Source: Chlorobiota bacterium
GTDB lineage: Bacteria > Bacteroidota > Chlorobiia > Chlorobiales > Chlorobiaceae
Assembly (NCBI GenBank): GCA_016868665.1
Contig: VGGK01000012.1
Coordinates: forward strand, 1 to 64,000
Direction of reading: 5' to 3'
DNA: 64,000 nucleotides
The notes below the pieces were generated by a model. That model was given only the letters and a program-made list of their open reading frames with translations, had not been told where the DNA came from and ran no database searches. Positions 46,817 to 60,364 of the stretch are shown one piece after another (position 1 is the first letter of the stretch; each line of letters starts with the position of its first letter). The position numbers and the translations under genes were made by a program.

Positions 46817-49363
46817 ATGTCCGATTCCCAAAGAGACTCTTTTTACCTCGGTGCTTTGCTGCATGACGTTGGCAAGTTCATCCAACGCGCACAGCTGACA
46901 CAATGGACTCGTGCAGCACGTGTTTATGTCAGTCGTGCCGGGAGAAGTCATGCGCATAAACGATATTCAGCAGCATTTCTAAAGCTGTTCCGTGACCAGG
47001 GTTGGCTCGCTGAAGCAAACATTGAACACATTGAACATTATGTGTTGCATCATCATGCCGCCTGGGATAGAGGATACACTGATTTATGCAGAAAAAACGT
47101 TCCGGTCAAACTTATCCGGATTGCCGATATCTGGGCATCAAAAGAACGGATAAAAGTCGATTTTCTTGAGCCTGTATCGTATTCAAGAGCAAGGCTGCAA
47201 TCGATATTTTCAAGTATCAGGTTAACCGACAAAACTGGAGATGACTATGTTCCTGACCTTGAATATCACGATCTGACACCGCTTTCCATGAAACCGGAGG
47301 CGCTGTTTCCGGCAGGTCAGTCTCCAAGGTTTCCTCAGCAGGCATACACGCCGATCATCAATCAATTCAAGGAGTCATTCGGAAAGATTCGAAATGATGA
47401 AGAGTTGTTGCCACTGCTCTGGAAGTACTTCAATGCCGTTCCAGCCCAGACTCCGAACAGAAAGCAGGGGCCACTTCTTGACAGACCGGATATCAATCTT
47501 TTCGACCATTCAAGGGTTACTGCGGCCATAGCGCTCTGCCTGTATGACGAGTGGCAACAGGGCAACTGGCAGGGTGAAGATCGTAAAATTATCGGCTATA
47601 AGCCCGGGGGACAAGAGAAAACCAGTTTGTCGGTGCCCTGTATCCTGATTGGCGGGGATATTTCAGGAATCCAGAAATTCATTTTCCATGTCCCTTCAAA
47701 AAAAGCAGCCAAAACACTCAAGGCACGGTCATTTTACGTACAGCTTTTTGCAGATGTTTGCGCAAGAAAGGTTCTTGATTTCCTGAAGCTTAAACCGGCA
47801 AACCTTCTGTACACCGGTGGTGGCAGGTTTTACATTCTCGCTCCAAAATATCGGGATCCTCAGCTCGATGACTGCCGGAAAGAGATTATGCAGAGTTTGC
47901 TTAACCGTGACTTCATCGACGACGAACTGTACCTTTCTCTTGCTTCTGTTGATGTTGCTCCCGGCGACTTCATGAGCGAGTTCGGCCGGAAATGGGCTGA
48001 CGTGAACAAACTGCTTGAGGATGCAAAACTGCAGAAATTCAGGCAATTGGGATGTGAGGAGATATTTAAACCCAGAACACAACGTTCAGCAGGCGAAAAG
48101 CCGAAAAAAGGCGACCTGTATACGGATATTACCGGATTATTGAGATGCAAAACCTACAAGGTTTCAAGTTTCGGGAATTCCACCCCGGAATCGGAAGGTG
48201 ATGCGTGGAAAAAGCTTTTCAGGTCGATCGGATATGACGTGAATTTTACCAATGGCAGTACAGCCGACAGCAGCGAAAAAACAGTTCGATTCAACTCAAC
48301 GGACTTCGAAGGTAGCTATTCAGACTACCGATTTGCCGTTAAGGACCTGCCACGTTGGGATGCTGAAACCATCAAGCGGTTCAGAGAGCATCTTGAACTG
48401 TATGGACGCAGCATGGAGGATTATCTGGACGATGATGAAAAAACAGGAGAAAAACGTCCTTTAAAGGATGACGATATCATCACCTATTCACAGCTTGCTT
48501 TCAAGGCTTTTCATGAAACCGGAACGGAAAAACTCGGCATTCTGAAAATGGATGTCGATGATCTCGGAAAAGTGTTTGCTGATGGTTTTGAACGGGATAT
48601 CAGAACACCATCTCGGATGATGTCGTTATCGCGGTCATTGCAGTGGTTTTTCGAGGGCTATATGAACACGGTTCTTCAGGAAGACCAATTCAAGGATTAC
48701 ATCTATCCGATATTTTCCGGTGGTGATGACCTGTTCATGGTAGGGGCATGGCACAAGGTTTTTGACCTGGCACTGAGAATACAGGAAGAGTTTCAGCGTT
48801 TTGTCTGCAACAATCCCTCGTTGACACTCTCGGCAAGTCTGCTGGTTGTCGATGAGCATTACCCGGTATCGCGGTTTGCCGTGCTTGCCGAGGAGCGGTT
48901 GCACAGGGCCAAATACGAGACGGGTAGCAAGAAGAATGCCATTAATGTTCTTGGTCATACCCTGACCTGGCAGGAGTTCCGCGAGGCGCAAAAGGTCAGG
49001 GATGCGTTGCTGGAGATCGTCGGGTACGAGAACTCCCGTGCAGTTATACGGAAAGTGCTCAGGGGATGCACCGGCCTTCAGGTGCTTCACGAACGGGCGG
49101 CTCGCCAGAACAGTATCACCGTGGAAACAGAAAACAGCCTTCAGGTTGCCGCCTTGTTTGCCAATGAGCCGGTTTACGGCGAAAAGGTCTGGAGGATGGC
49201 TTACTTCCTTCGTGATCTCGAACAACCCGAAGCAAAAGAATGTGCCGGGAAGATTCTTGAGATGTATGAAAATGTCATTGGTCAGGCCATGCAAAAAAAA
49301 TTGGTCAACCCCATGAAGATTGCTGTCGGGGCACGCTGGGCTGAATTTGCATCACGGACATGA
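46817..49363 (+). CDS. csm1: type III-A CRISPR protein Cas10/Csm1
   Basis: The large subunit of the Csm complex, which on target RNA binding cuts single-stranded DNA and makes cyclic oligoadenylate. The 848-residue protein has the HD nuclease residues His16-Asp17 (LGALLHDVGKFIQRA) and a further HHHAAWD pair, the first palm domain (ILIGGDISGIQKFIFHVPS), the second palm (LGILKMDVDDLGKVFADGF) and an intact GGDD at residues 635-638 (FSGGDDLFMVG). The C-terminal helical bundle follows. Both catalytic centres look intact. It heads the operon, 175 bp from the divergent DUF6602-like gene. Confidence 0.96.
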   Translation: MSDSQRDSFYLGALLHDVGKFIQRAQLTQWTRAARVYVSRAGRSHAHKRYSAAFLKLFRDQGWLAEANIEHIEHYVLHHHAAWDRGYTDLCRKNVPVKLIRIADIWASKERIKVDFLEPVSYSRARLQSIFSSIRLTDKTGDDYVPDLEYHDLTPLSMKPEALFPAGQSPRFPQQAYTPIINQFKESFGKIRNDEELLPLLWKYFNAVPAQTPNRKQGPLLDRPDINLFDHSRVTAAIALCLYDEWQQGNWQGEDRKIIGYKPGGQEKTSLSVPCILIGGDISGIQKFIFHVPSKKAAKTLKARSFYVQLFADVCARKVLDFLKLKPANLLYTGGGRFYILAPKYRDPQLDDCRKEIMQSLLNRDFIDDELYLSLASVDVAPGDFMSEFGRKWADVNKLLEDAKLQKFRQLGCEEIFKPRTQRSAGEKPKKGDLYTDITGLLRCKTYKVSSFGNSTPESEGDAWKKLFRSIGYDVNFTNGSTADSSEKTVRFNSTDFEGSYSDYRFAVKDLPRWDAETIKRFREHLELYGRSMEDYLDDDEKTGEKRPLKDDDIITYSQLAFKAFHETGTEKLGILKMDVDDLGKVFADGFERDIRTPSRMMSLSRSLQWFFEGYMNTVLQEDQFKDYIYPIFSGGDDLFMVGAWHKVFDLALRIQEEFQRFVCNNPSLTLSASLLVVDEHYPVSRFAVLAEERLHRAKYETGSKKNAINVLGHTLTWQEFREAQKVRDALLEIVGYENSRAVIRKVLRGCTGLQVLHERAARQNSITVETENSLQVAALFANEPVYGEKVWRMAYFLRDLEQPEAKECAGKILEMYENVIGQAMQKKLVNPMKIAVGARWAEFASRT

Positions 49364-49396
49364 CGGCTATTTTGATTAACGTAACCGGATAAAGCA

Positions 49397-49876
49397 GTGA
49401 CGGAAACAAAAAATGTATATCATGAGGGGGTGCCGGCAACCGATAAGATGCCGGATGTCCAGAAAGCTTTGGAATTGAATGAACGGGAAAAGGGATACGA
49501 GAAATTGATAAAGGATTCTTTTGTGGAAGATTATGTTGCATACATTTTCAGTGACCACACGAGCGACTATAATGAATATATCGATAAAGTCAAGCGGTAT
49601 GTTTCTTACAAGTGTAAAGATGTCACCACGGCACAGTTGAGAAACGTCTATGCCCGTATCCAGAAAGCGCCAACACCGTTTGCATTGCAAATGTTACGCC
49701 CAAAAATCGCTTATGTTGCCGGAAGGACAGAGGTGTATCAGTTGAAAGTGGTGATGTTTCTGCTTGAGCAGTTGATTGTCAGGGTTGACGGGCCTGAGAA
49801 GCTTGACCGTTTTAAGGCTTTTTACGAGGCGATTGTCGCGTATCATAAATATTATCATGGACGGAGACAAACGTGA
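49397..49876 (+). CDS. csm2: type III-A CRISPR small subunit Csm2
   Basis: The small helical subunit of the Csm complex that lines the RNA filament. The 159-residue protein is alpha-helical with the family motif VTTAQLRNVYARIQKAP and a helical C-terminal half that is tyrosine-rich (AIVAYHKYYHGRR). The N-terminal 40 residues are low-complexity. The apparent start is GTG 49397. The csm3 ATG lies inside the end of this gene. Confidence 0.92.
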   Translation: MTETKNVYHEGVPATDKMPDVQKALELNEREKGYEKLIKDSFVEDYVAYIFSDHTSDYNEYIDKVKRYVSYKCKDVTTAQLRNVYARIQKAPTPFALQMLRPKIAYVAGRTEVYQLKVVMFLLEQLIVRVDGPEKLDRFKAFYEAIVAYHKYYHGRRQT

Positions 49877-50595
49877 TGTCAAAATTTACCGGAAAAGTTT
49901 TTATCAGGGGCCGTATCGTCGCTAAAACCGGTTTGCATATCGGCGGCTCAAAGACGACGCTTGACATAGGCGCCGTTGATCTGAATGTCATCAAAACAGC
50001 GGAAGGGCTTCCGTTCATACCCGGCAGCTCCCTGAAAGGAAAATTGCGTTCGATTCTTGCCCGCGAAGAGGGCAGTGAAAGGGTGGAAGACGATAGCGTC
50101 ATTATCAAACGGATATTCGGCAGCGCAAAAGATAAGGTTAGTGGCGATTCAGCCCGTTTGATTGTCAGGGACGCTTTTATTGCAGGTGATGCAAGAGAGG
50201 GGGATGAAGGGCTCTGTACTGAAACCAAGTGGGAAAATACGATCGATCGTACAACAGGGGCCGCCAGGCATCCCCGCCAGGTTGAGCGGGTTTTGGCCGG
50301 TACCGAGTTCGATTTTGAGATGGTGTACAACATCTATGACGATATTAAAGAAGAACGCGAATTGAAAGGCGATCTCGATGCTGTTTTCAGGGCGATGCAT
50401 ATTCTCGAGGATGATTACCTTGGCGGGCAGGGATCACGAGGTTACGGGAGGGTCTGCTTCAGGAACGTATCCGTTACAAGGAAACTGATTTCGGATTATT
50501 CCGGCGGGAATCAGGATTCCCCGTTGGTATTGGAAGGTCGTGACAGCGTCAGCTTTATATCGGGGTGTCATGAAAGCGATTCTGCTGATTCCTGA
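49876..50595 (+). CDS. csm3: type III-A CRISPR RAMP protein Csm3
   Basis: The backbone subunit that cuts target RNA at 6-nt steps. The 239-residue RAMP has GRIVAKTGLHIGGSKTTLDI, GAVDLNVIKTAEGLPFIPGS followed by SLKGKLRSILA, and a glycine-rich loop GGQGSRGYGRV. The aspartate in IGAVD (residue 35) lies at the site that is catalytic in characterised Csm3 proteins, so RNase activity should be kept. I use ATG 49876; an in-frame GTG lies one codon earlier. It overlaps csm4 by 26 bp. Confidence 0.95.
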   Translation: MSKFTGKVFIRGRIVAKTGLHIGGSKTTLDIGAVDLNVIKTAEGLPFIPGSSLKGKLRSILAREEGSERVEDDSVIIKRIFGSAKDKVSGDSARLIVRDAFIAGDAREGDEGLCTETKWENTIDRTTGAARHPRQVERVLAGTEFDFEMVYNIYDDIKEERELKGDLDAVFRAMHILEDDYLGGQGSRGYGRVCFRNVSVTRKLISDYSGGNQDSPLVLEGRDSVSFISGCHESDSADS

Positions 50596-51604
50596 CCATG
50601 GATCTCGCTTTCATCTTGGCGAAACGAGCCTCGATGATACGAGCGATCTGTTGCATGCCGATACCCTGTTTTCGGCCTTGACGACCGTTTATGCACTGGC
50701 ATTCGATTCCGGGGCGCAACGCTTTATAGGGTTTGTCAGGAGCGGAAAACTGCGGTTTTCATCCGGCTTGTATGCCGTACGGAGTTTTTCTGCCGCGGGG
50801 CCGAACGGAGCATGGAAACTGTTTTTTCCCAAGCCTTTGGTGAACTATCCCGAAACATGCGATGCAAGGCGCCTGAAAAAGATACGCTATGTCTCCGGTG
50901 CGGTGCTGAAGGCGATGAATGTGCAATGGGACGGGGAGAATTGTTTTACAGATTTCAACGTGCTGGATTGTCCTTCTGTCGGCGGTGAGTTTATTTTTCA
51001 TCGTGATGAGCTGAACGATTTCGGCGTGTCTCCGGATGGCTTGTCGTTCCGGCATGTGGTCACTGCACCGAAGGTTAAAGTTCATACGACGGATGACAAG
51101 GACAGGTTGTACCATGTCACTTCTGTTCAGTTCAATGACATCCAGTGCGGTGTGTCACGGCTGCGAGGAGCTTATTGCGTGCTGCTGCACAGTGAGCTTC
51201 TGCCCGAGGAGGAGAAAGAGCTCATGGTCGCCTTTCGCATTCTTGCCGACGAAGGGGTTGGCGGTGAGCGCTCTTCAGGTTGCGGTCAGTTCAGGACAGT
51301 GGAGATGACCGACATCGGGTTGCCCGAAGCTCCGCCTGATCCGTCTTGTCATCTTGTCCTGTCGCCTGTTTCACCGGCAGACGATGCCGAATTCCAACAG
51401 ATGCACCGGTATGAACTATTCGTTCGTGGCGGCGGTTCAGCAGGCTTGCACGCAGACCCCGAAACTGTTCGCAAGCAGGCACGTTTCATCAGGGAAGGAG
51501 CTGTGTCGAGACGACCGATTGACGGACGTCTTCTCGATATTTCGCCGCAAAAGGATGAACGCATCTTACGGTATGGCATGAATTTTTCCATTTCCCTGGC
51601 ATGA
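50570..51604 (+). CDS. csm4: type III-A CRISPR RAMP protein Csm4
   Basis: Binds the 5' tag of the crRNA and joins Cas10. The 344-residue protein starts MKAILLIPDHGSRFHLGETS, keeps the ADTLFSALTTVYALAFDSG helix and a later ADEGVGGERSSGCGQFRTV glycine-rich loop typical of RAMP proteins. I use ATG 50570, since the frame upstream lies inside csm3. It overlaps csm5 by ATGA. Confidence 0.93.
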   Translation: MKAILLIPDHGSRFHLGETSLDDTSDLLHADTLFSALTTVYALAFDSGAQRFIGFVRSGKLRFSSGLYAVRSFSAAGPNGAWKLFFPKPLVNYPETCDARRLKKIRYVSGAVLKAMNVQWDGENCFTDFNVLDCPSVGGEFIFHRDELNDFGVSPDGLSFRHVVTAPKVKVHTTDDKDRLYHVTSVQFNDIQCGVSRLRGAYCVLLHSELLPEEEKELMVAFRILADEGVGGERSSGCGQFRTVEMTDIGLPEAPPDPSCHLVLSPVSPADDAEFQQMHRYELFVRGGGSAGLHADPETVRKQARFIREGAVSRRPIDGRLLDISPQKDERILRYGMNFSISLA

Positions 51605-52827
51605 CAGACAAGCTGATTCAGAAAAGGATGACCCTTGAGGCTATTTCCCCGATTTTTATCGGGGCTGGCAAGGAAGCAGTCTTTTCGCCCTGTACGGATT
51701 TTGTCCAGGAGGGAAATGAACTGATCTGTCTTGATGAACGGAAACTGCAATCATTACTGATGAGCAGGCCTGAACTCGTCGACCGGTTTGTCGAACACGT
51801 TCGTCAAGAGGGTATGCTGGAGGATTTTCTGACATACCATTGCAACAGTTCCGTTGCCTCGCTTGCAAAACAGCGGATTCCGGTCGACGGTGAGGTCAGA
51901 AGAAAACACATCCAGCGCTTTCTTGAAACGCAAGGAGCTCCCTTTGTACCCGGAAGCACCATCAAGGGTGCCATGGCAACGGCCGTCTTGTGGGACTGGC
52001 TGCTCAATAACGAGTCGGGTCTGCAAATGCTTCAACACATTCAGGGCTATGTCGGCAAAGGAGACCGGAATTCCATGAAAAGCTGTAAGGTGACTGACCG
52101 GTGTTTCAACCGCCGGCTGGATAACACTTTTTCGCTCGAAGATCGAAATGATGCCGAAACGCCTGCCGAACTGCCCACTTATCATGCGTTCCGTTTTTTG
52201 CAGATCAGTGATGCAAGGCCGTTTTCACCGGAAACCTTGCAGGTCAGCCAGGTTGAACGGTTGCGCATAGTGCCGTTACCGGAAGAGAAGAGCGGTAAGG
52301 ATGAAACCTCTATCCCACAGTGGCGTCAAACCGTTCGTTCCGGTGCGAGCACATTGTTTTCATTGTCGTTGCTGCACTCGGAACAGAAAAACGGGTTTCA
52401 GTTCGTCAAACATCAATCGGTAAAACAGCTATTCCTGATCATCAATTCTTTTTCAAAGGCCTCGTGCGAGCGGGAACTGGCGATGCTCAAACACCGTCAC
52501 CCGGCAAGTCCTTCTGACGTTTCAAGGCTGATCTCGTTTTATGAAACACTACTCAATAACTTTCCCCGACCCCAAGCCAACGAGGCTATCCTCAGGATTG
52601 GCGGCGGAAAGACCTGGTTCGACAATTCCATCGGCCTGGCGATCGGTCAACTCCATTCAAAGAAGCCTGGGCGGGAGAGCGAATCGTTACTTGGCGATTA
52701 CCTGAAAACTGTTCTGAACATCGACATCGCTGACGACTGCTTCCCGCAAACCCGTTCCGTACTGCTCAAGGATGGCACTCCTTATCAACCGCTTGGATGG
52801 GTCAGGCTCAAATTGCTCCCGAACTGA
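51601..52827 (+). CDS. csm5: type III-A CRISPR RAMP protein Csm5
   Basis: Caps the 3' end of the complex and recruits nucleases for crRNA trimming. The 408-residue protein opens RMTLEAISPIFIGAGKEAVF, includes GAPFVPGSTIKGAMATAVLW, the RAMP loop that mirrors the Csm3 motif, and a late LRIGGGKTWFDNSIGLAIGQ. The central part is variable, as usual. The stop is 5 bp before cas6. Confidence 0.93.
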   Translation: MTDKLIQKRMTLEAISPIFIGAGKEAVFSPCTDFVQEGNELICLDERKLQSLLMSRPELVDRFVEHVRQEGMLEDFLTYHCNSSVASLAKQRIPVDGEVRRKHIQRFLETQGAPFVPGSTIKGAMATAVLWDWLLNNESGLQMLQHIQGYVGKGDRNSMKSCKVTDRCFNRRLDNTFSLEDRNDAETPAELPTYHAFRFLQISDARPFSPETLQVSQVERLRIVPLPEEKSGKDETSIPQWRQTVRSGASTLFSLSLLHSEQKNGFQFVKHQSVKQLFLIINSFSKASCERELAMLKHRHPASPSDVSRLISFYETLLNNFPRPQANEAILRIGGGKTWFDNSIGLAIGQLHSKKPGRESESLLGDYLKTVLNIDIADDCFPQTRSVLLKDGTPYQPLGWVRLKLLPN

Positions 52828-52832
52828 TCAGT

Positions 52833-53834
52833 ATGTACACACCCCTCTCTTCTCTCCGCATCGCGCGGTTCAGGTTTACCATCGAGCCGACGGAACTGGT
52901 GCAGTTGCCGGATTACAAGGGTTCGGCGCTGCGGGGCGGGTTCGGGCATGCGTTCAAGCGAGCGACGTGCCTGAGTCGTGACCGTCGGTGCGAGCAGTGT
53001 ATTCTGAAATCGGCGTGCGCCTACTATACCGTTTTTGAAACAAAGGTGTCGCAGGAGATCGCCGACCGGTTACGGATCGGGGCTGATGCGCCGCATCCAT
53101 TCCTGATCGAACCGCCGATGACGGGGCAGCACACGTTCAGGCCGGGTGATTCGATACGGTATGGACTGACCCTCTTCGGTACGGCCATCGACAAACTGCC
53201 GTTTTTCATCTACGCATTTATGATTCTCGGCGAGAACCTCGGCTTGGGAAAAGGCAGAGGGCGTTTCAGGCTGGTGAGCGTCGAGGATGATGCGGGCCGG
53301 AATATCTATGACAACGGTAATCTTGTCGGCCCTGCCACAGTGACGCAATCGAAAGATATTCTCGAAGCGGCCGGTACGTGTGACCGTGACCTCAGCCTCG
53401 AATTCCTTACCCCCCTTCGCATCAGGACTTCCTGGAAACGTCAGGAACAGGAGTTGCTCACCGGCATCGCGAGTGACGATGATTTCCGGCTCCTGCTCAA
53501 GTCGCTCTATCACCGGGCGTTCGTGCTCTCACAGCTATACGGAGATCATCAGGAGCAGGAGCCGTTTGACAGCCGCAATTTGCCGCTTTTCGATGGCGAT
53601 GTGCGTCTTGTTGAGTCAAAAACCCGCTGGCTTGACTGGACGCGCTATTCCCAGCGCCAGCAGCAGTCGATGCAGCTCGGCGGCATCATGGGGCGCGTCA
53701 CTTTTACCGGAAAAACCGGCCAGTACATACCATTGTTCCGGCTTGGCGAATATCTGCATATCGGAAAAGGAACCGGTTTCGGACTTGGCAAGTACCGGAT
53801 ACTTGAATCTGTAACCACTACTGCTGATGAGTGA
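52833..53834 (+). CDS. cas6: crRNA-processing endoribonuclease Cas6
   Basis: Cuts the long CRISPR transcript within each repeat. The 333-residue protein is of the PF10040-type Cas6: TELVQLPDYKGSALRGGFGH at the start, then a four-cysteine patch (CEQCILKSAC), GENLGLGKGRGRFRLVSV in the middle and GRVTFTGKTGQYIPLFRLGE with a late HIGKGTGFGLGKY glycine-rich loop. ATG 52833 is chosen over the upstream frame in csm5. The overlap with cas1 is 8 bp. Catalytic residues vary in this family and cannot be named. Confidence 0.92.
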   Translation: MYTPLSSLRIARFRFTIEPTELVQLPDYKGSALRGGFGHAFKRATCLSRDRRCEQCILKSACAYYTVFETKVSQEIADRLRIGADAPHPFLIEPPMTGQHTFRPGDSIRYGLTLFGTAIDKLPFFIYAFMILGENLGLGKGRGRFRLVSVEDDAGRNIYDNGNLVGPATVTQSKDILEAAGTCDRDLSLEFLTPLRIRTSWKRQEQELLTGIASDDDFRLLLKSLYHRAFVLSQLYGDHQEQEPFDSRNLPLFDGDVRLVESKTRWLDWTRYSQRQQQSMQLGGIMGRVTFTGKTGQYIPLFRLGEYLHIGKGTGFGLGKYRILESVTTTADE

Positions 53835-54870
53835 CGACGCGCTGTTTCTCCGGACGCTCTACATTCAGGAACAGGGATCGATGCTCCGGATTGATAACGA
53901 ATGTTTCAGGGTAACCCTCAACCGGAACGGGGATGAGGAGGAGCTGCTCGATATTCAGTGTATCAAGGTTGGTCAGATCGTTATTTTCGGAGCGTGTATG
54001 ATCACTCCGGCGGCAATGCGCCACTGCTTGTGCAACCGGATTCCTGTGATTCTGCTCTCGCAGCATGGCGAGTATTTCAGCCGCATCGAATCGACCGACG
54101 ATGTCAATATCAAACTTGAACGGCTGCAGTTCCAGCGATCCACCGAAAACGCCTTTCCGCTGGAGTGTGCGCGATGCTTTGTCCGGGCGAAATTGCACAA
54201 TTCAGGCGTGATGCTTAAAAGGCATTATGAGAAATCTCGATCACCTTCGCTTGGCAAGGCAATTGAAACATTGCGACAGATCGAAGCACACACCGACAGG
54301 GCTGAAACAATCGATGCCGTGCGTGGTTATGAAGGGAGTGGTGCTGCTGCGTACTTCGGTGTGTTCGAAGAGCTGTTCGAGGCAGAGGGGTTCAGTTTTC
54401 GGCAGCGGATCAAGCGTCCGCCGACGGATCCGGTCAATGCCATGCTGAGTTTCGGGTACAGCCTGCTTTTCAATAATATTTTTTCAATGGCCCGTCTGCA
54501 CCGGCTCCACCCCTATGTCGGGTTTCTTCATGCCGACAAGCCGGCACACCCGGCTCTCATCAGCGACATGATCGAAGAGTTCCGTACCGTTGTGGATGGT
54601 CTCGTCATCGGGCTTATCAACAAACATCTGATCAGCCCGAGGGAGTTTACTCTTGCGCGACATGACGATGGCAGGGCAAAGGGATGTTATCTTTCCGATG
54701 CTGCCCGAAAAGTCTTTCTTCGTGAGTTCGAAAATCTCATGCACCGCAACACTACACATCCCGGAACAGGATATGAAGTGACCTATCGCCGTTGTCTCGA
54801 TCTGCAGGCCGGGCAGTTCGCCCTCTACCTGAAAGGAGAAAAGCAATACATGCCGTATCTCAGGAGGTGA
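53827..54870 (+). CDS. cas1: CRISPR adaptation integrase Cas1
   Basis: The integrase that inserts new spacers. The 347-residue protein contains the N-terminal beta part (LRIDNECFRVTLNRNGDEEE), a middle with FGVFEELFEAEGF, and the catalytic C-terminal region: DPVNAMLSFGYSLLFNNI, LHPYVGFLHADKPAHPALIS with the histidine, and DMIEEFR with the acidic pair. It reads as a type III-A/I-A-like Cas1, not fused to a reverse transcriptase. The stop overlaps the ribosome site of cas2. Confidence 0.95.
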   Translation: MSDDALFLRTLYIQEQGSMLRIDNECFRVTLNRNGDEEELLDIQCIKVGQIVIFGACMITPAAMRHCLCNRIPVILLSQHGEYFSRIESTDDVNIKLERLQFQRSTENAFPLECARCFVRAKLHNSGVMLKRHYEKSRSPSLGKAIETLRQIEAHTDRAETIDAVRGYEGSGAAAYFGVFEELFEAEGFSFRQRIKRPPTDPVNAMLSFGYSLLFNNIFSMARLHRLHPYVGFLHADKPAHPALISDMIEEFRTVVDGLVIGLINKHLISPREFTLARHDDGRAKGCYLSDAARKVFLREFENLMHRNTTHPGTGYEVTYRRCLDLQAGQFALYLKGEKQYMPYLRR

Positions 54871-54873
54871 TAA

Positions 54874-55149
54874 ATGTTTTTTCTTGTTTCGTATGACATC
54901 TGTGATCACAAACGGCTGCCGAAAGTGGCAAAACTCATGGAGGGATATGGCGTTCGCGTCCAATACAGCGTTTTCGAATGTATCCTGACCGAACGACAGT
55001 ATCAGGAACTGCAACGACGATTAAAACGGTTGATCAGAGTCGAAACAGACAGTGTTCGCTTTTACCGGCTCTGCGACTCCTGCCAGGGAGAGATAACCAT
55101 AATGGGTCAGGGCACGATAAGCGGTAATGAACTCTATTTCATTGCCTGA
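54874..55149 (+). CDS. cas2: CRISPR adaptation protein Cas2
   Basis: The dimer partner of Cas1. The 91-residue ferredoxin-fold protein begins FFLVSYDICDHKRLPKVAKL with the conserved Asp at residue 8, has the middle GYGVRVQYSVFECILTERQY and a C-terminal FYRLCDSC. The start is preceded by a near-perfect ribosome site, AGGAGGTGAT (54862-54871), in which the cas1 stop codon is embedded, so translation is probably coupled and strong. Confidence 0.96.
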   Translation: MFFLVSYDICDHKRLPKVAKLMEGYGVRVQYSVFECILTERQYQELQRRLKRLIRVETDSVRFYRLCDSCQGEITIMGQGTISGNELYFIA

Positions 55150-55416
55150 AAAGAGTATATGGCTTTTTGTACACGGAGCTTTGTGCAGGGAGCGATGTAA
55201 GGCCGTTACTATTCATAACAGCATGAAATATATGCCGATACGGTGACAACGCCGTTAAAAGCTCCGTGCAAGGCCTCAAAATGATTGTGAAAAAAGAAGT
55301 TACCGGAAATGATCACTGTCGTTTATTTGCCTGATATGCATTATTATAAAATGTTGAACGACCTCCGTGTAAATCGGCCCGCCGAAGCCCGTCTGAACAG
55401 GGTTTCACAGGGTACA
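55150..55416 (+). promoter_or_regulatory. probable CRISPR leader
   Basis: The stretch between cas2 and the first repeat, moderately AT-rich. It is taken as the leader since the repeats are perfect at this end while the far end degenerates, and cas1-cas2 abut it. It contains the inverted pair CACGGAGCTTT (55172-55182) and AAAGCTCCGTG (55258-55268), 75 nt apart. No coding frame is convincing. Confidence 0.65.
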
Positions 55417-56826
55417 GTAGATGAAGACCTGACGTAATAAGAGGGATTGAAACTAAAGCATAGCAAAGCGTCTCCAGATCCCGAGTAACAGTAGGTAGAT
55501 GAAGACCTGACGTAATAAGAGGGATTGAAACAAATAGTTGTCGTGATACTCGAAATCACCTTGATTGGTAGATGAAGACCTGACGTAATAAGAGGGATTG
55601 AAACAGGGTGTAAGCAGCTCTATAAACATGAAATAAGGGATACGTAGATGAAGACCTGACGTAATAAGAGGGATTGAAACCGACTCGAAGACTGCCCTTT
55701 AGTAAGGAATAAAATAGCGTGTAGATGAAGACCTGACGTAATAAGAGGGATTGAAACTTTACCAGAGTGTGCTAATGCTGCAAGAGTGGCTTCAAAAGCT
55801 GTAGATGAAGACCTGACGTAATAAGAGGGATTGAAACGGAAATTTCCGGAAGGTACGTGAAATCCCTTTTTCTCTCGTAGATGAAGACCTGACGTAATAA
55901 GAGGGATTGAAACACACCTAATGCATTGAATAGAGTTTTGTACGCTTTTATATTTGTAGATGAAGACCTGACGTAATAAGAGGGATTGAAACGGATAATC
56001 ATCGTGTTCCTTTTTGGGAATACGCTTCTCCGTAGATGAAGACCTGACGTAATAAGAGGGATTGAAACATATATCACCACTCTTCCCTCCCAAGGAGTCT
56101 CTCAGCAAGTAGATGAAGACCTGACGTAATAAGAGGGATTGAAACTCCTCAGGATAAGTTGCTCGTATGGCGTTTTTCTCACGTAGATGAAGACCTGACG
56201 TAATAAGAGGGATTGAAACATGGCGTAGTCGGTTGCGCCGATGCCGGGGCCGGTACGGGTAGATGAAGACCTGACGTAATAAGAGGGATTGAAACTTCAA
56301 GTCTCTACGTTGGTTAGACCCGATTCGCTCATAGTAAGTAGATGAAGACCTGACGTAATAAGAGGGATTGAAACTTCTCACTCGCCGTCAGGGCTTTTTT
56401 TTTAGCGCGGTGGTAGATGAAGGCCTGACGTAATAAGAGGGATTGAAACTCTTTTTTACTACCACAATATTGACAAGTGTTTTTATCTGTAGATGAAGAC
56501 CTGACGTAATAAGAGGGATTGAAACATCATCTCTTCAGGCAACCCCACAGCGTTTAACTCTTTCTTGTAGATGAAGACCTGACGTAATAAGAGGGATTGA
56601 AACATCAAGCGCGCCGGCCAACCCGCCGCCCGTCTTGATCAGTAGATGAAGACCTGACGTAATAAGAGGGATTGAAACTCTTTATCCAGTATTGCAATTT
56701 GATATACAGGCAGCGTAGATGAAGACCTGACGTAATAAGAGGGATTGAAACACTCTCAATATAACCTTTACCGTAACCCGGCTGTTCGAGTAGATGAAGA
56801 CCTGACGTAATAAGAGGGATTGCAAA
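55417..56826 (+). CRISPR. CRISPR array, 19 repeats of 37 nt, 18 spacers
   Basis: The repeat begins GTAGATGAAGACCTGACG and ends AAGAGGGATTGAAAC; the ATTGAAAC 3' end suits the crRNA tag of type III systems and places transcription on the plus strand. Repeats begin at 55417, 55495, 55568, 55644, 55721, 55801, 55877, 55956, 56032, 56109, 56183, 56259, 56338, 56413, 56489, 56567, 56642, 56715 and 56790. Spacers range from 36 to 43 nt. Repeat 14 has one A-to-G change (AGGCCTG), and the last copy ends in TTGCAAAG instead of TTGAAAC. All spacers are different, so the array has been active. The repeat has no stop codon in its reverse frames, which creates long open minus-strand frames; these are not genes. 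Confidence 0.97.
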
Positions 56827-56987
56827 GGGGGGCGGACATTCCTGTCCGCCATTCAGGCAGCAAGCCGCGAAACACCCTCCGGGCGAGGTCAAACGACCTG
56901 TAGGTCATTCGGAAAAGGATTGCTGCGGTTTCGGGATCTGGCGGCGTGTCGTAAAAAACCAATGGCGGACAGGAAAGTCCGCCCCCC
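56827..56987. mobile_element. MITE-like hairpin element, copy 1
   Basis: A 161-bp element with hairpin ends. The left end holds GGCGGACATTCCTGTCCGCC (a hairpin itself) and the right end the near complement with GGCGGACAGGAAAGTCC; both sides finish in G or C runs. The ends are inverted repeats of each other. No protein is coded. It abuts the degenerate last CRISPR repeat. Right after it lies GTTAGATC followed by AAGAGGGATTGAAA, the latter identical to the repeat's 3' end. Confidence 0.75.
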
Positions 56988-57010
56988 GTTAGATCAAGAG
57001 GGATTGAAAA

Positions 57011-57171
57011 GGAGGGCGGACATTCCTGTCCGCCATTCAGGCAACGAGCTTCGAAACACCCGCCGAGCGAGGTATAACAACCACTACGTCATTCGGAAAC
57101 GGATTGCTGCGGTTTCGGGATCTGGCGGCGTATCGAAAAAAACCAATGGCGGACAGGAATGTCCGCCCCCC
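57011..57171. mobile_element. MITE-like hairpin element, copy 2
   Basis: Nearly identical to copy 1 and placed exactly 184 bp further on, so the unit repeats as element plus 23-bp linker. The hairpin ends are complete (GGCGGACAGGAATGTCCGCC at the right). The linker after it reads GTTAGATCAAGATGGATTGG, again resembling the CRISPR repeat 3' end. Differences between copies are single bases. Confidence 0.75.
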
Positions 57172-57194
57172 GTTAGATCAAGATGGATTGGAAA

Positions 57195-57275
57195 GGAGGG
57201 CGGACATTCCTGTCCGCCATTCAGGTAACGAGCCGCGAAACACCCGCCGAGCGAGGTAATACAACCTGTACGTCA
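57195..57275. mobile_element. MITE-like element, truncated copy 3
   Basis: It starts at the same phase (184 bp after copy 2) with the left hairpin and the next 60 bp, then diverges from the other copies after about CTGTACGTCA. The right end is missing, so this copy is cut off. Confidence 0.7.
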
Positions 57276-58408: not shown

Positions 58409-60364
58409 ATGAGTACTATGGCAGAGATCCGGTCCGAAAACATGAAAGGAACCTCGCTCGACATCGCCGCTGAAAACCGCGCCCGGCTGAAACAGCTCTT
58501 CCCGACGGTCTTTACCGAAACTCGCAACGAGCAGGGCGAGCTCTGCGAATCCATCGACTTTGAAAAACTCAAAGCCGAGCTCGGTACCTACAGCGACCTC
58601 TTCGAATCACGCCGTGAGCGGTACGGTATGGAGTGGCCCGGCAAAAAAGAGGCCCTGCACCTCATCCAGACCATAAGCTCCGCCACGCTCAAACCATGCC
58701 GCGCAGAATCGGTCAACTTCGACACCACCCAAAACCTCTTTATCGAAGGCGACAACCTCGAAGTGCTCAAGCTGCTCCAGACCAGTTACTACGGCAAGGT
58801 GAAAATGATCTACATCGACCCGCCCTACAACACCGGCAAGGAGTTCATCTACCCCGACAACTTCAGCGAAAGCCTTGAAACCTATCTGGAGTATGCCGGG
58901 CAGGACGGACGATGGAAAGACAGTCAATCCGCAAACGCAAAAGAAAATCCCCGCTACCACACCCGATGGCTGAACATGATGTACTCTCGCCTCTATCTGG
59001 CAAGGAACCTGCTCCGCGATGATGGTGTGATCTTTATCAGCATTGACGATAACGAGGTGAGCAATCTGCGGAAGCTGTGCGACGAGATTTTCGGAGAGGA
59101 GAATTTTGTGGCGAATATCGTATGGGAAAAAAAATATTCACCTCAAAATGACGCTAAATATTTTTCTGACAGTCATGAACACATACTTTTGTTTTCAAAA
59201 AATAAAAGTGTTTTTACGATTGGTTTATTACCAAGAACTGATGAAGCAAATGAGCGATACAAAAATCCAGATAATGATCCACGAGGTCCATGGAAATCAA
59301 GTGATTTAACAAGGCAAGAGTACCGATCTAATGATGATTATGAAATCATCAACCCTTTAACGGGAAAAGGATTTAGGCCACCAACAGGTAATAGTTGGGG
59401 TAGACCAAAAACAAATATTGAAGAACTTATTCGTGATAATCGCATTTGGTTTGGTTCTGATGGAAACAGTATGCCCTCACTAAAAAGGTTTTTATCCGAG
59501 GTAAAACAAGGGATAACACCTCAAACAATTTGGATGAGAAAAGATGTTGGTGACACACAAGAAGGCAAAAAAATAATTATAGATATTTTTGGTAATGCTA
59601 CTATTTATGAGACACCTAAACCACCCCGTTTAGTTATTAAGCAATTGGTTACGGCTAATTTTTCAAAAGACGACATCATTCTCGACTTCTTCGCCGGTTC
59701 AGCCACCACCGCCCATGCCGTCCTCGACCTGAACAAACAGGACAAAGGCAACCGCAAATTCATACTCGTTCAGCTTCCTGAACCCTGCGCGCCTGAGAGC
59801 GAAGCCTTCAAGGCAGGGTATAAAACCATAGCCGATATCGGCAAGGAGCGCATCCGCCGGGTCATCAGCAAGCTCAACACCGAAGAGGAGGGCAAGCTTG
59901 ATCTCGACAATGCCGGCAGGCAGGATAGGGGCTTCAAGGTGCTCAAGCTCGACAAGTCCAACTTCCGCCAGTGGCAGAAGCTTGACCCGTCAGCATCGAA
60001 AGAGCGGATTCTTGAGCAGCTTACCCTGCACATCGACCATATCGACCATCAGGCAACACCCGAAGACCTGCTTTACGAAATTCTCCTCAAGGCCGGATTC
60101 AGCCTGACCGGCAACATTGAAACCGGAACCATCACCGGAAAAAAGATTTTCTCCGTCTCCGGAGGAGCACTCCTGCTCTGCCTTGAAGAGAGCGTCAACA
60201 AGGAACTGATCGATGCGGTCATCGAGCTCAACCCCCAGCAGTTCATCTGCCTCGACTCCGCCTTCCACGGCAACGACCAGCTCAAAGCCAATGCCGTGCA
60301 GACCTTCAACGCCCACAACATGCAAAAGGAAAAGCACAACCAGATTCTCTTTAAAACGGTATAA
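58409..60364 (+). CDS. mod: type III restriction-modification system DNA methyltransferase (Mod)
   Basis: Adds methyl groups to adenine and gives sequence specificity to the type III complex. The 651-residue protein has the catalytic DPPYN at residues 137-141 (MIYIDPPYNTGKEF) and the AdoMet site FFAGSATTAHAVLDL near residue 427, i.e. the beta-type order. Between them lies the target recognition region (about 235-415), coded by strikingly AT-rich DNA (roughly 59120-59660), unlike the flanks. The start is ATG 58409 or 58418. It heads the operon mod, DNA-binding gene, doc, res. Confidence 0.95.
   Translation: MSTMAEIRSENMKGTSLDIAAENRARLKQLFPTVFTETRNEQGELCESIDFEKLKAELGTYSDLFESRRERYGMEWPGKKEALHLIQTISSATLKPCRAESVNFDTTQNLFIEGDNLEVLKLLQTSYYGKVKMIYIDPPYNTGKEFIYPDNFSESLETYLEYAGQDGRWKDSQSANAKENPRYHTRWLNMMYSRLYLARNLLRDDGVIFISIDDNEVSNLRKLCDEIFGEENFVANIVWEKKYSPQNDAKYFSDSHEHILLFSKNKSVFTIGLLPRTDEANERYKNPDNDPRGPWKSSDLTRQEYRSNDDYEIINPLTGKGFRPPTGNSWGRPKTNIEELIRDNRIWFGSDGNSMPSLKRFLSEVKQGITPQTIWMRKDVGDTQEGKKIIIDIFGNATIYETPKPPRLVIKQLVTANFSKDDIILDFFAGSATTAHAVLDLNKQDKGNRKFILVQLPEPCAPESEAFKAGYKTIADIGKERIRRVISKLNTEEEGKLDLDNAGRQDRGFKVLKLDKSNFRQWQKLDPSASKERILEQLTLHIDHIDHQATPEDLLYEILLKAGFSLTGNIETGTITGKKIFSVSGGALLLCLEESVNKELIDAVIELNPQQFICLDSAFHGNDQLKANAVQTFNAHNMQKEKHNQILFKTV

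Follow-up and report, generated by a model that had tools for sequence, protein, structure and literature searches.

REPINs, inverted pairs of REP sequences that fold as one hairpin, have been described in Pseudomonas fluorescens SBW25, where they are dispersed and also form ordered tandem clusters that include flanking sequence (PMC3116915); BIMEs are comparable, and elements of this kind are associated with RAYT (TnpA-REP) transposases. The CGTC- and GTAG-tagged REPs, among them CGTC repeats reported from Chlorobi, are likewise short palindromes tagged at one end, and tandem dimers that take flanking DNA along have been described for them (PMC3733652). The terminal repeats of CRISPR arrays, for their part, are degenerate yet conserved: the last repeat is altered on its 3' side, the trailer is conserved among strains while the spacers turn over, and duplication of spacers mediated by the repeats is known; why last repeats so often have an altered 3' end, and why the trailer is fixed amid spacer turnover, is an open question (PMC8047081). 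A miniature mobile element, the MITE HqIRS37, interrupts a CRISPR array in Haloquadratum walsbyi (PMC3119063).

The locus described here combines these features at the far end of a CRISPR array in a Chlorobium genome. It resembles the SBW25 clusters, but the repeated flank is a CRISPR repeat, the copy number is low, and no RAYT with flanking copies of this REP turned up in the genome of the window, by which we mean the whole stretch of 64,000 nucleotides that was analysed. It resembles the degenerate trailers, but in this case a mobile hairpin joined to the repeat is what alters it. HqIRS37 differs in that it is a single insertion within a spacer, in an archaeal strain without cas genes, with neither a fusion to the terminal repeat nor a tandem. 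The tag of the REP is GG[AG]G, different from CGTC and GTAG, and for those REPs no association with CRISPR is reported in the accessible part of the source. Both tandem REPIN clusters and degenerate CRISPR trailers are thus kinds already known, and REP-capped arrays are a variant of these; we found no report of such arrays in the literature searched, which covers few subscription journals. Chlorobium shows one physical cause of an altered last repeat, a mobile hairpin fused to it, in several species and with different repeats. Moreover, the target choice of RAYT and REP is poorly known, and array ends give a defined, recurrent landing place. With a small construct, both the trailer question and the RAYT-target question become testable.

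The window belongs to contig C12 of a 2.4-Mb draft genome (G000), whose closest named relative, judged by Cas1, is Pelodictyon luteolum. The features are as follows, with L105 denoting the corresponding locus of a second strain.

46817..55149, + strand: type III-A module csm1/cas10, csm2, csm3, csm4, csm5, cas6, cas1, cas2, from Pfam and NCBIfam matches
55150..55416, + strand: leader, from cas2 to the first repeat; it adjoins cas2 and is conserved in L105
55417..56826, + strand: CRISPR array with 19 repeats GTAGATGAAGACCTGACGTAATAAGAGGGATTGAAAC and 18 spacers of 36-43 nt
56790..56822, + strand: terminal repeat; positions 1-33 are intact, and where the final four bases AAAC should stand the element's CAAAGG begins; identical junction at L105:10684
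56824..56990, + strand: U1, complete REPIN (REP 56824-56853, core, inverted REP 56961-56990)
56991..57007, + strand: linker 1 (AGATCAAGAGGGATTGA), between REPIN arms; the same linker stands in L105 between REPINs c and d
57008..57174, + strand: U2, complete REPIN
57175..57191, + strand: linker 2 (AGATCAAGATGGATTGG)
57192..57275, + strand: U3, truncated REPIN of which 84 bp are present and the right hairpin is missing

The module was recognized by its profile matches (TIGR02578, E 3e-151; TIGR02582, E 7e-57; Cas1 PF01867, E 4e-85; Cas2 PF09827, E 5e-27), and the array has regular repeats and spacers and a leader beside csm, cas6, cas1 and cas2, as a type III-A array should. Within the module, the end of cas6, cas1, cas2 and the leader are near-identical between the window and L105, whereas an upstream segment is only 71% identical and the remaining csm genes (within 46817-55149) have no match: the adaptation and effector parts differ in history. 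Three features place the REPIN fusion at the leader-distal end: the repeats end in ATTGAAAC, the leader adjoins cas2, and it is the last repeat that is altered.

The first-pass annotation had called the last repeat degenerate. We found instead that it is intact to position 33 (GGGATTG), where the junction reads GGGATTG/CAAAGG. The CAAAGG is the left end of the element and not decay of the repeat, because a solitary copy of the element at G000:C12:65083 (hereafter S) also starts with TGCAAAGG. The elements form a 184-bp tandem of 2.5 copies (56812-57275; TRF score 774), the first and second copies being 90% identical. The three elements at 184-bp steps that had been noticed before were confirmed as to the step, which is exact, and as to the first two elements, which are complete; the third stops short at 57275, without a right hairpin. 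The full units are bounded by 30-nt hairpin arms that are 90-97% complementary, and U2 folds with a z of -6.6. In a terminator scan the REP hairpins scored on the minus strand only, close to the shuffle background, and RNA folding of the CRISPR repeat and the repeat relics described below, examined for Cas6 sites, gave weak structures that were not informative.

Each element is a REPIN, made of two inverted copies of a dispersed REP, AAAGGAGGGCGGACATTCCTGTCCGCCATT, and not a MITE with a visible target duplication. This REP consists of GG[AG]G, then GGCGGACA-NNNN-TGTCCGCC, then ATT, that is, a short imperfect palindrome tagged on one side, and it occurs at many unrelated sites. The REP and its inverse were found both single and paired, with unrelated flanks, in the genome of the window and in other Chlorobium genomes. 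The 61 Chlorobium genomes sampled contain 68 sites with its exact core, spread over 9 genomes, and a reversed control gave 0. REPs are commonly high-copy sequences, often with more than 100 copies per genome. The exact-core copies here number 1-18 per genome, fewer than is typical, so that the family is REPIN in structure only and, given this low copy number, is kept apart from the classic, abundant REPINs. The solitary copy S is 94% identical to U2 and has the same left end, with different flanks. No target-site duplication was visible at S or at another solitary copy, C13:16410, and no insertion motif ATTG shared by all REP copies was seen. Thus the description of the elements as MITE-like gave way to REP/REPIN, which their ends and their dispersal fit. 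A search of viral contigs for the junction pattern and the CRISPR repeat gave no match, and a search of plasmids found nothing.

We then considered the linkers, which had been proposed to end like the 3' end of the CRISPR repeat. In the first linker, AAGAGGGATTGAAA, 14 of 14 positions agree with the 3' portion of the repeat, so the proposal stood for this linker; the second has 2 mismatches (AAGATGGATTGGAA). Outside the array, AAGAGGGATTG is found within the 64 kb only at this tandem, and the motif together with AAAGG, at 0-1 mismatch, is found genome-wide only inside this array or directly 3' of it. Together with the adjoining GTT and AAA, linker 1 reads GTTAGATCAAGAGGGATTGAAA. It makes better sense as a whole repeat that has shrunk, GTTAGAT...AAGAGGGATTG, than as the 3' end of a repeat alone, which keeps the CRISPR origin proposed earlier and changes its extent. 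Most simply, the linker GTTAGATCAAGAGGGATTG of the window would be a CRISPR repeat that lost its middle. GTTAGAT as the 5' end of the repeat is a weak match when taken alone, since 7.6% of random 8-mers align equally well. The linker derives from the CRISPR repeat, because it is missing from the element's other copies in the genome. That the linker could be part of the element was rejected: it is absent from solitary and foreign copies, and no copies with the linker turned up far from arrays. A near-match GGGGGTATTGAAAGG at G004:C59, where there is no array, is a single case that we took as chance.

The second strain, Pelodictyon luteolum SulCav (L105), has a Cas1 that is 97% identical to that of the window. 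The genome of this strain is G041, with which G057 is evidently identical, because the array has the same coordinates on contig C103 in both. The L105 array has the same repeat as the window and 14 spacers, none of which is among the 18 of the window, and its last repeat is fused to a REPIN at the very same junction. After the trailer REPIN, at L105:10881, there is a full-length decayed repeat with 10 mismatches in 37, 8 of them in positions 1-33. The linker of the window recurs 0.7 kb downstream of the L105 array, at the site that matches S, which holds four REPINs (a to d), the second of them truncated. Between the first two stands a 37-nt repeat (L105:11706; 7 mismatches in 37, 5 in positions 1-33), and the last two are separated by the window's very linker. 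As a baseline for these relics at positions 1-33, the best found elsewhere had 10 mismatches in 33 in L105 and 14 in 33 in the window. The right flank of the S site lies on contig C14 in the window's genome (99% identical), where a repeat relic and the right half of a REPIN are fused (G000:C14:57954-57983). A search of both genomes for degenerate repeats returned the array repeats and three relics only, all three of which abut REPINs, and the reversed control gave 0. Given the relics between the REPINs of L105, the linker of the window is most simply a decayed repeat, and the amplified unit is [repeat + REPIN]. In two more distant loci, L106 and L107 (Cas1 71-73%), no REP was found; L106 has a different array, and no array was detected in L107.

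We also noted that a segment of ~7.7 kb (57276-64961 of the window's contig), with a DNA methyltransferase gene (58409-60364) and a gene for a Doc-like toxin, exactly fills the gap from the trailer REPINs to the next REPIN site. At its place L105 has only ~0.5 kb of other sequence.

CRISPR arrays with REP hairpins of this family at their ends occur in four related Chlorobium genomes, which makes the arrangement a recurring one and no one-off accident; the first-pass annotation had missed that other Chlorobium genomes share it. Among the 61 Chlorobium genomes sampled, 5 of the 9 that bear the REP have a REP-capped array end. In G008, the terminal repeat (CTTCATATCTTATTGCACGCATAGCGTATTGCGAC) runs into the REP at 3 array ends; G076, with a related repeat, has 5 such ends with two kinds of junction; and G065 has 1, with the repeat ATAGATAAGACCTGAAGCTATAAGAGGGATTGAGAC. 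The repeat is cut after TTG, four bases before its end, in the window, in L105, in G065 and at three of the G076 ends. The share of exact-core REPs that are sited at array ends is 3 of 7 in G008 and 2 of 4 in G076. Some 20 further array ends in Chlorobium carry no such REP, most of them belonging to genomes from which the family is absent. The probability that a genome has at least one capped end is 0.005-0.02, assuming uniform insertion and a generous 20 array ends per genome; REPs avoid genes, and the estimate of enrichment is several-fold weaker when insertion is confined to intergenic DNA. The enrichment of REPs at array ends is suggestive and not proven. The recurrence may represent few independent events, of which G008 and G076 may share one, given a common junction type and similar repeats, and the genomes that matter most are drafts made up of many contigs. 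A separate observation concerns L253 (G076:C76, 10487-14900), where five CRISPR sub-arrays follow one another in a row, some hundreds of bases apart, each with a truncated repeat and a REP at its end.

Taken together, these data support the earlier idea of a CRISPR-hairpin hybrid that was joined at the terminal repeat and grew by tandem multiplication. The structure is real and shared by the two strains: at the distal end of a type III-A array, a REPIN is fused after the GGGATTG of the terminal repeat and multiplied as [CRISPR repeat + REPIN]. In the most likely history, a RAYT would have placed the REPIN at the terminal repeat; the units would have multiplied when unequal exchange or slippage during replication took place either between CRISPR repeats, in the way spacers are duplicated, or between REPs; and the linker repeats, released from selection, would have shrunk. 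Divergence between complete units is 6-14%. In the unit alignment, columns 77 and 105 show a four-gamete pattern (U2, A and G; U1, T and G; L105 REPIN a, A and C; c, T and C), and of the allele pairs of U2, one is common to L105 a, b and d, and another to U1, S and the trailer copy of L105. Such combinations of alleles across sites, as they appear in the alignment, would require recombination or recurrent change. Alleles are shuffled among units and between the trailer and the downstream site, which fits copying of units together with exchange by recombination, in line with what is known of spacers (PMC8047081) and of tandem REPIN clusters with their flanks (PMC3116915).

Two other routes to the same anatomy were weighed. 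A MITE mobilized by a DDE transposase could have hit the terminal repeat and left a target duplication of 9-11 bp (AAGAGGGAT[TG]), with [duplication + element] amplified later. The linker's AAGAGGGATTG does duplicate the sequence to the left of the first element, and the terminal inverted repeats are long, but the repeat relics beside the L105 REPINs are full repeats of 37 nt and not 11 bp, the solitary copies S and C13 have no target duplication, and the REP halves occur single or otherwise paired, which is typical of REPs and not of MITEs; we regard this route as quite unlikely. Still less probable, to a degree that we would give it only a slight chance, is that Cas1-Cas2 took a REPIN, for example folded from a single strand, as a spacer of excessive length, and that [repeat + REPIN] was duplicated afterwards. 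A REPIN of L105 does sit between two repeats without leftover spacer, at the oldest position, and in G008 the REP falls within a 71-nt period from the terminal repeat to a decayed repeat. However, the insert of ~165 bp far exceeds the spacers of 36-47 nt, it is leader-distal, and a folded hairpin has one pair of ends and not two. Cas1-Cas2 also joins new DNA precisely at the boundary of a repeat, yet here four bases are missing from the end of the left repeat. The integration of a long hairpin suggested by the first-pass annotation is thus unlikely.

The cause of the recurrence is a different matter. REPINs might simply pile up in neutral DNA, the far end of an array included, with neither targeting nor function; this reading is compatible with the [repeat + REPIN] anatomy, and we hold it to be a serious possibility, somewhat short of an even chance. 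The array ends without this REP, most of them in genomes that lack the family, and the ordinary flanks of REPINs elsewhere speak for it. The presence of at least one capped array in more than half of the REP-bearing genomes, the share of exact-core REPs at array ends in G008 and G076, and the low per-genome probability under uniform insertion at 20 array ends speak against it. It is doubtful, though less so than either of the other two routes above, that REP/RAYT elements prefer terminal CRISPR repeats after TTG, that the cap is retained because it defines the array end, and that the repeats travel as cargo of a REPIN composite that spreads locally. Speculatively, such a cap might make the 3' end of the terminal repeat different and so guard the array from collapse by recombination, or else its hairpin might end or protect the pre-crRNA.

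With regard to the transposase, we infer that the REPINs are mobilized by a RAYT. A RAYT (Y1_Tnp) domain flanked on both sides by this REP is found at G004:C44 and at G041/G057:C40, inside the hsdR frame. At both places (L079:187-3414 in G004:C44; L176 in G057/G041:C40) the domain is in frame within the ORF of a type I restriction HsdR, and the REPs around it translate as peptides like GGQECPP and GGLENPP. Long open frames carrying the same RAYT domain are present in G006, G010 and G033. The sole Y1_Tnp ORF in the window's genome, at C28, has no such REP beside it. At that place (L101, G000:C28, 993-3632) there are two RAYT-like frames with identical starts, one of them filled by about ten tandem copies of a short unit that reads KEEEAELGLRDPG, which is a different palindrome family. 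Finally, in G001 (L238, G001:C15, 11996-12329 and 13080-14209) two successive array ends are each followed at ~150 bp by a RAYT gene or fragment (92% identical).
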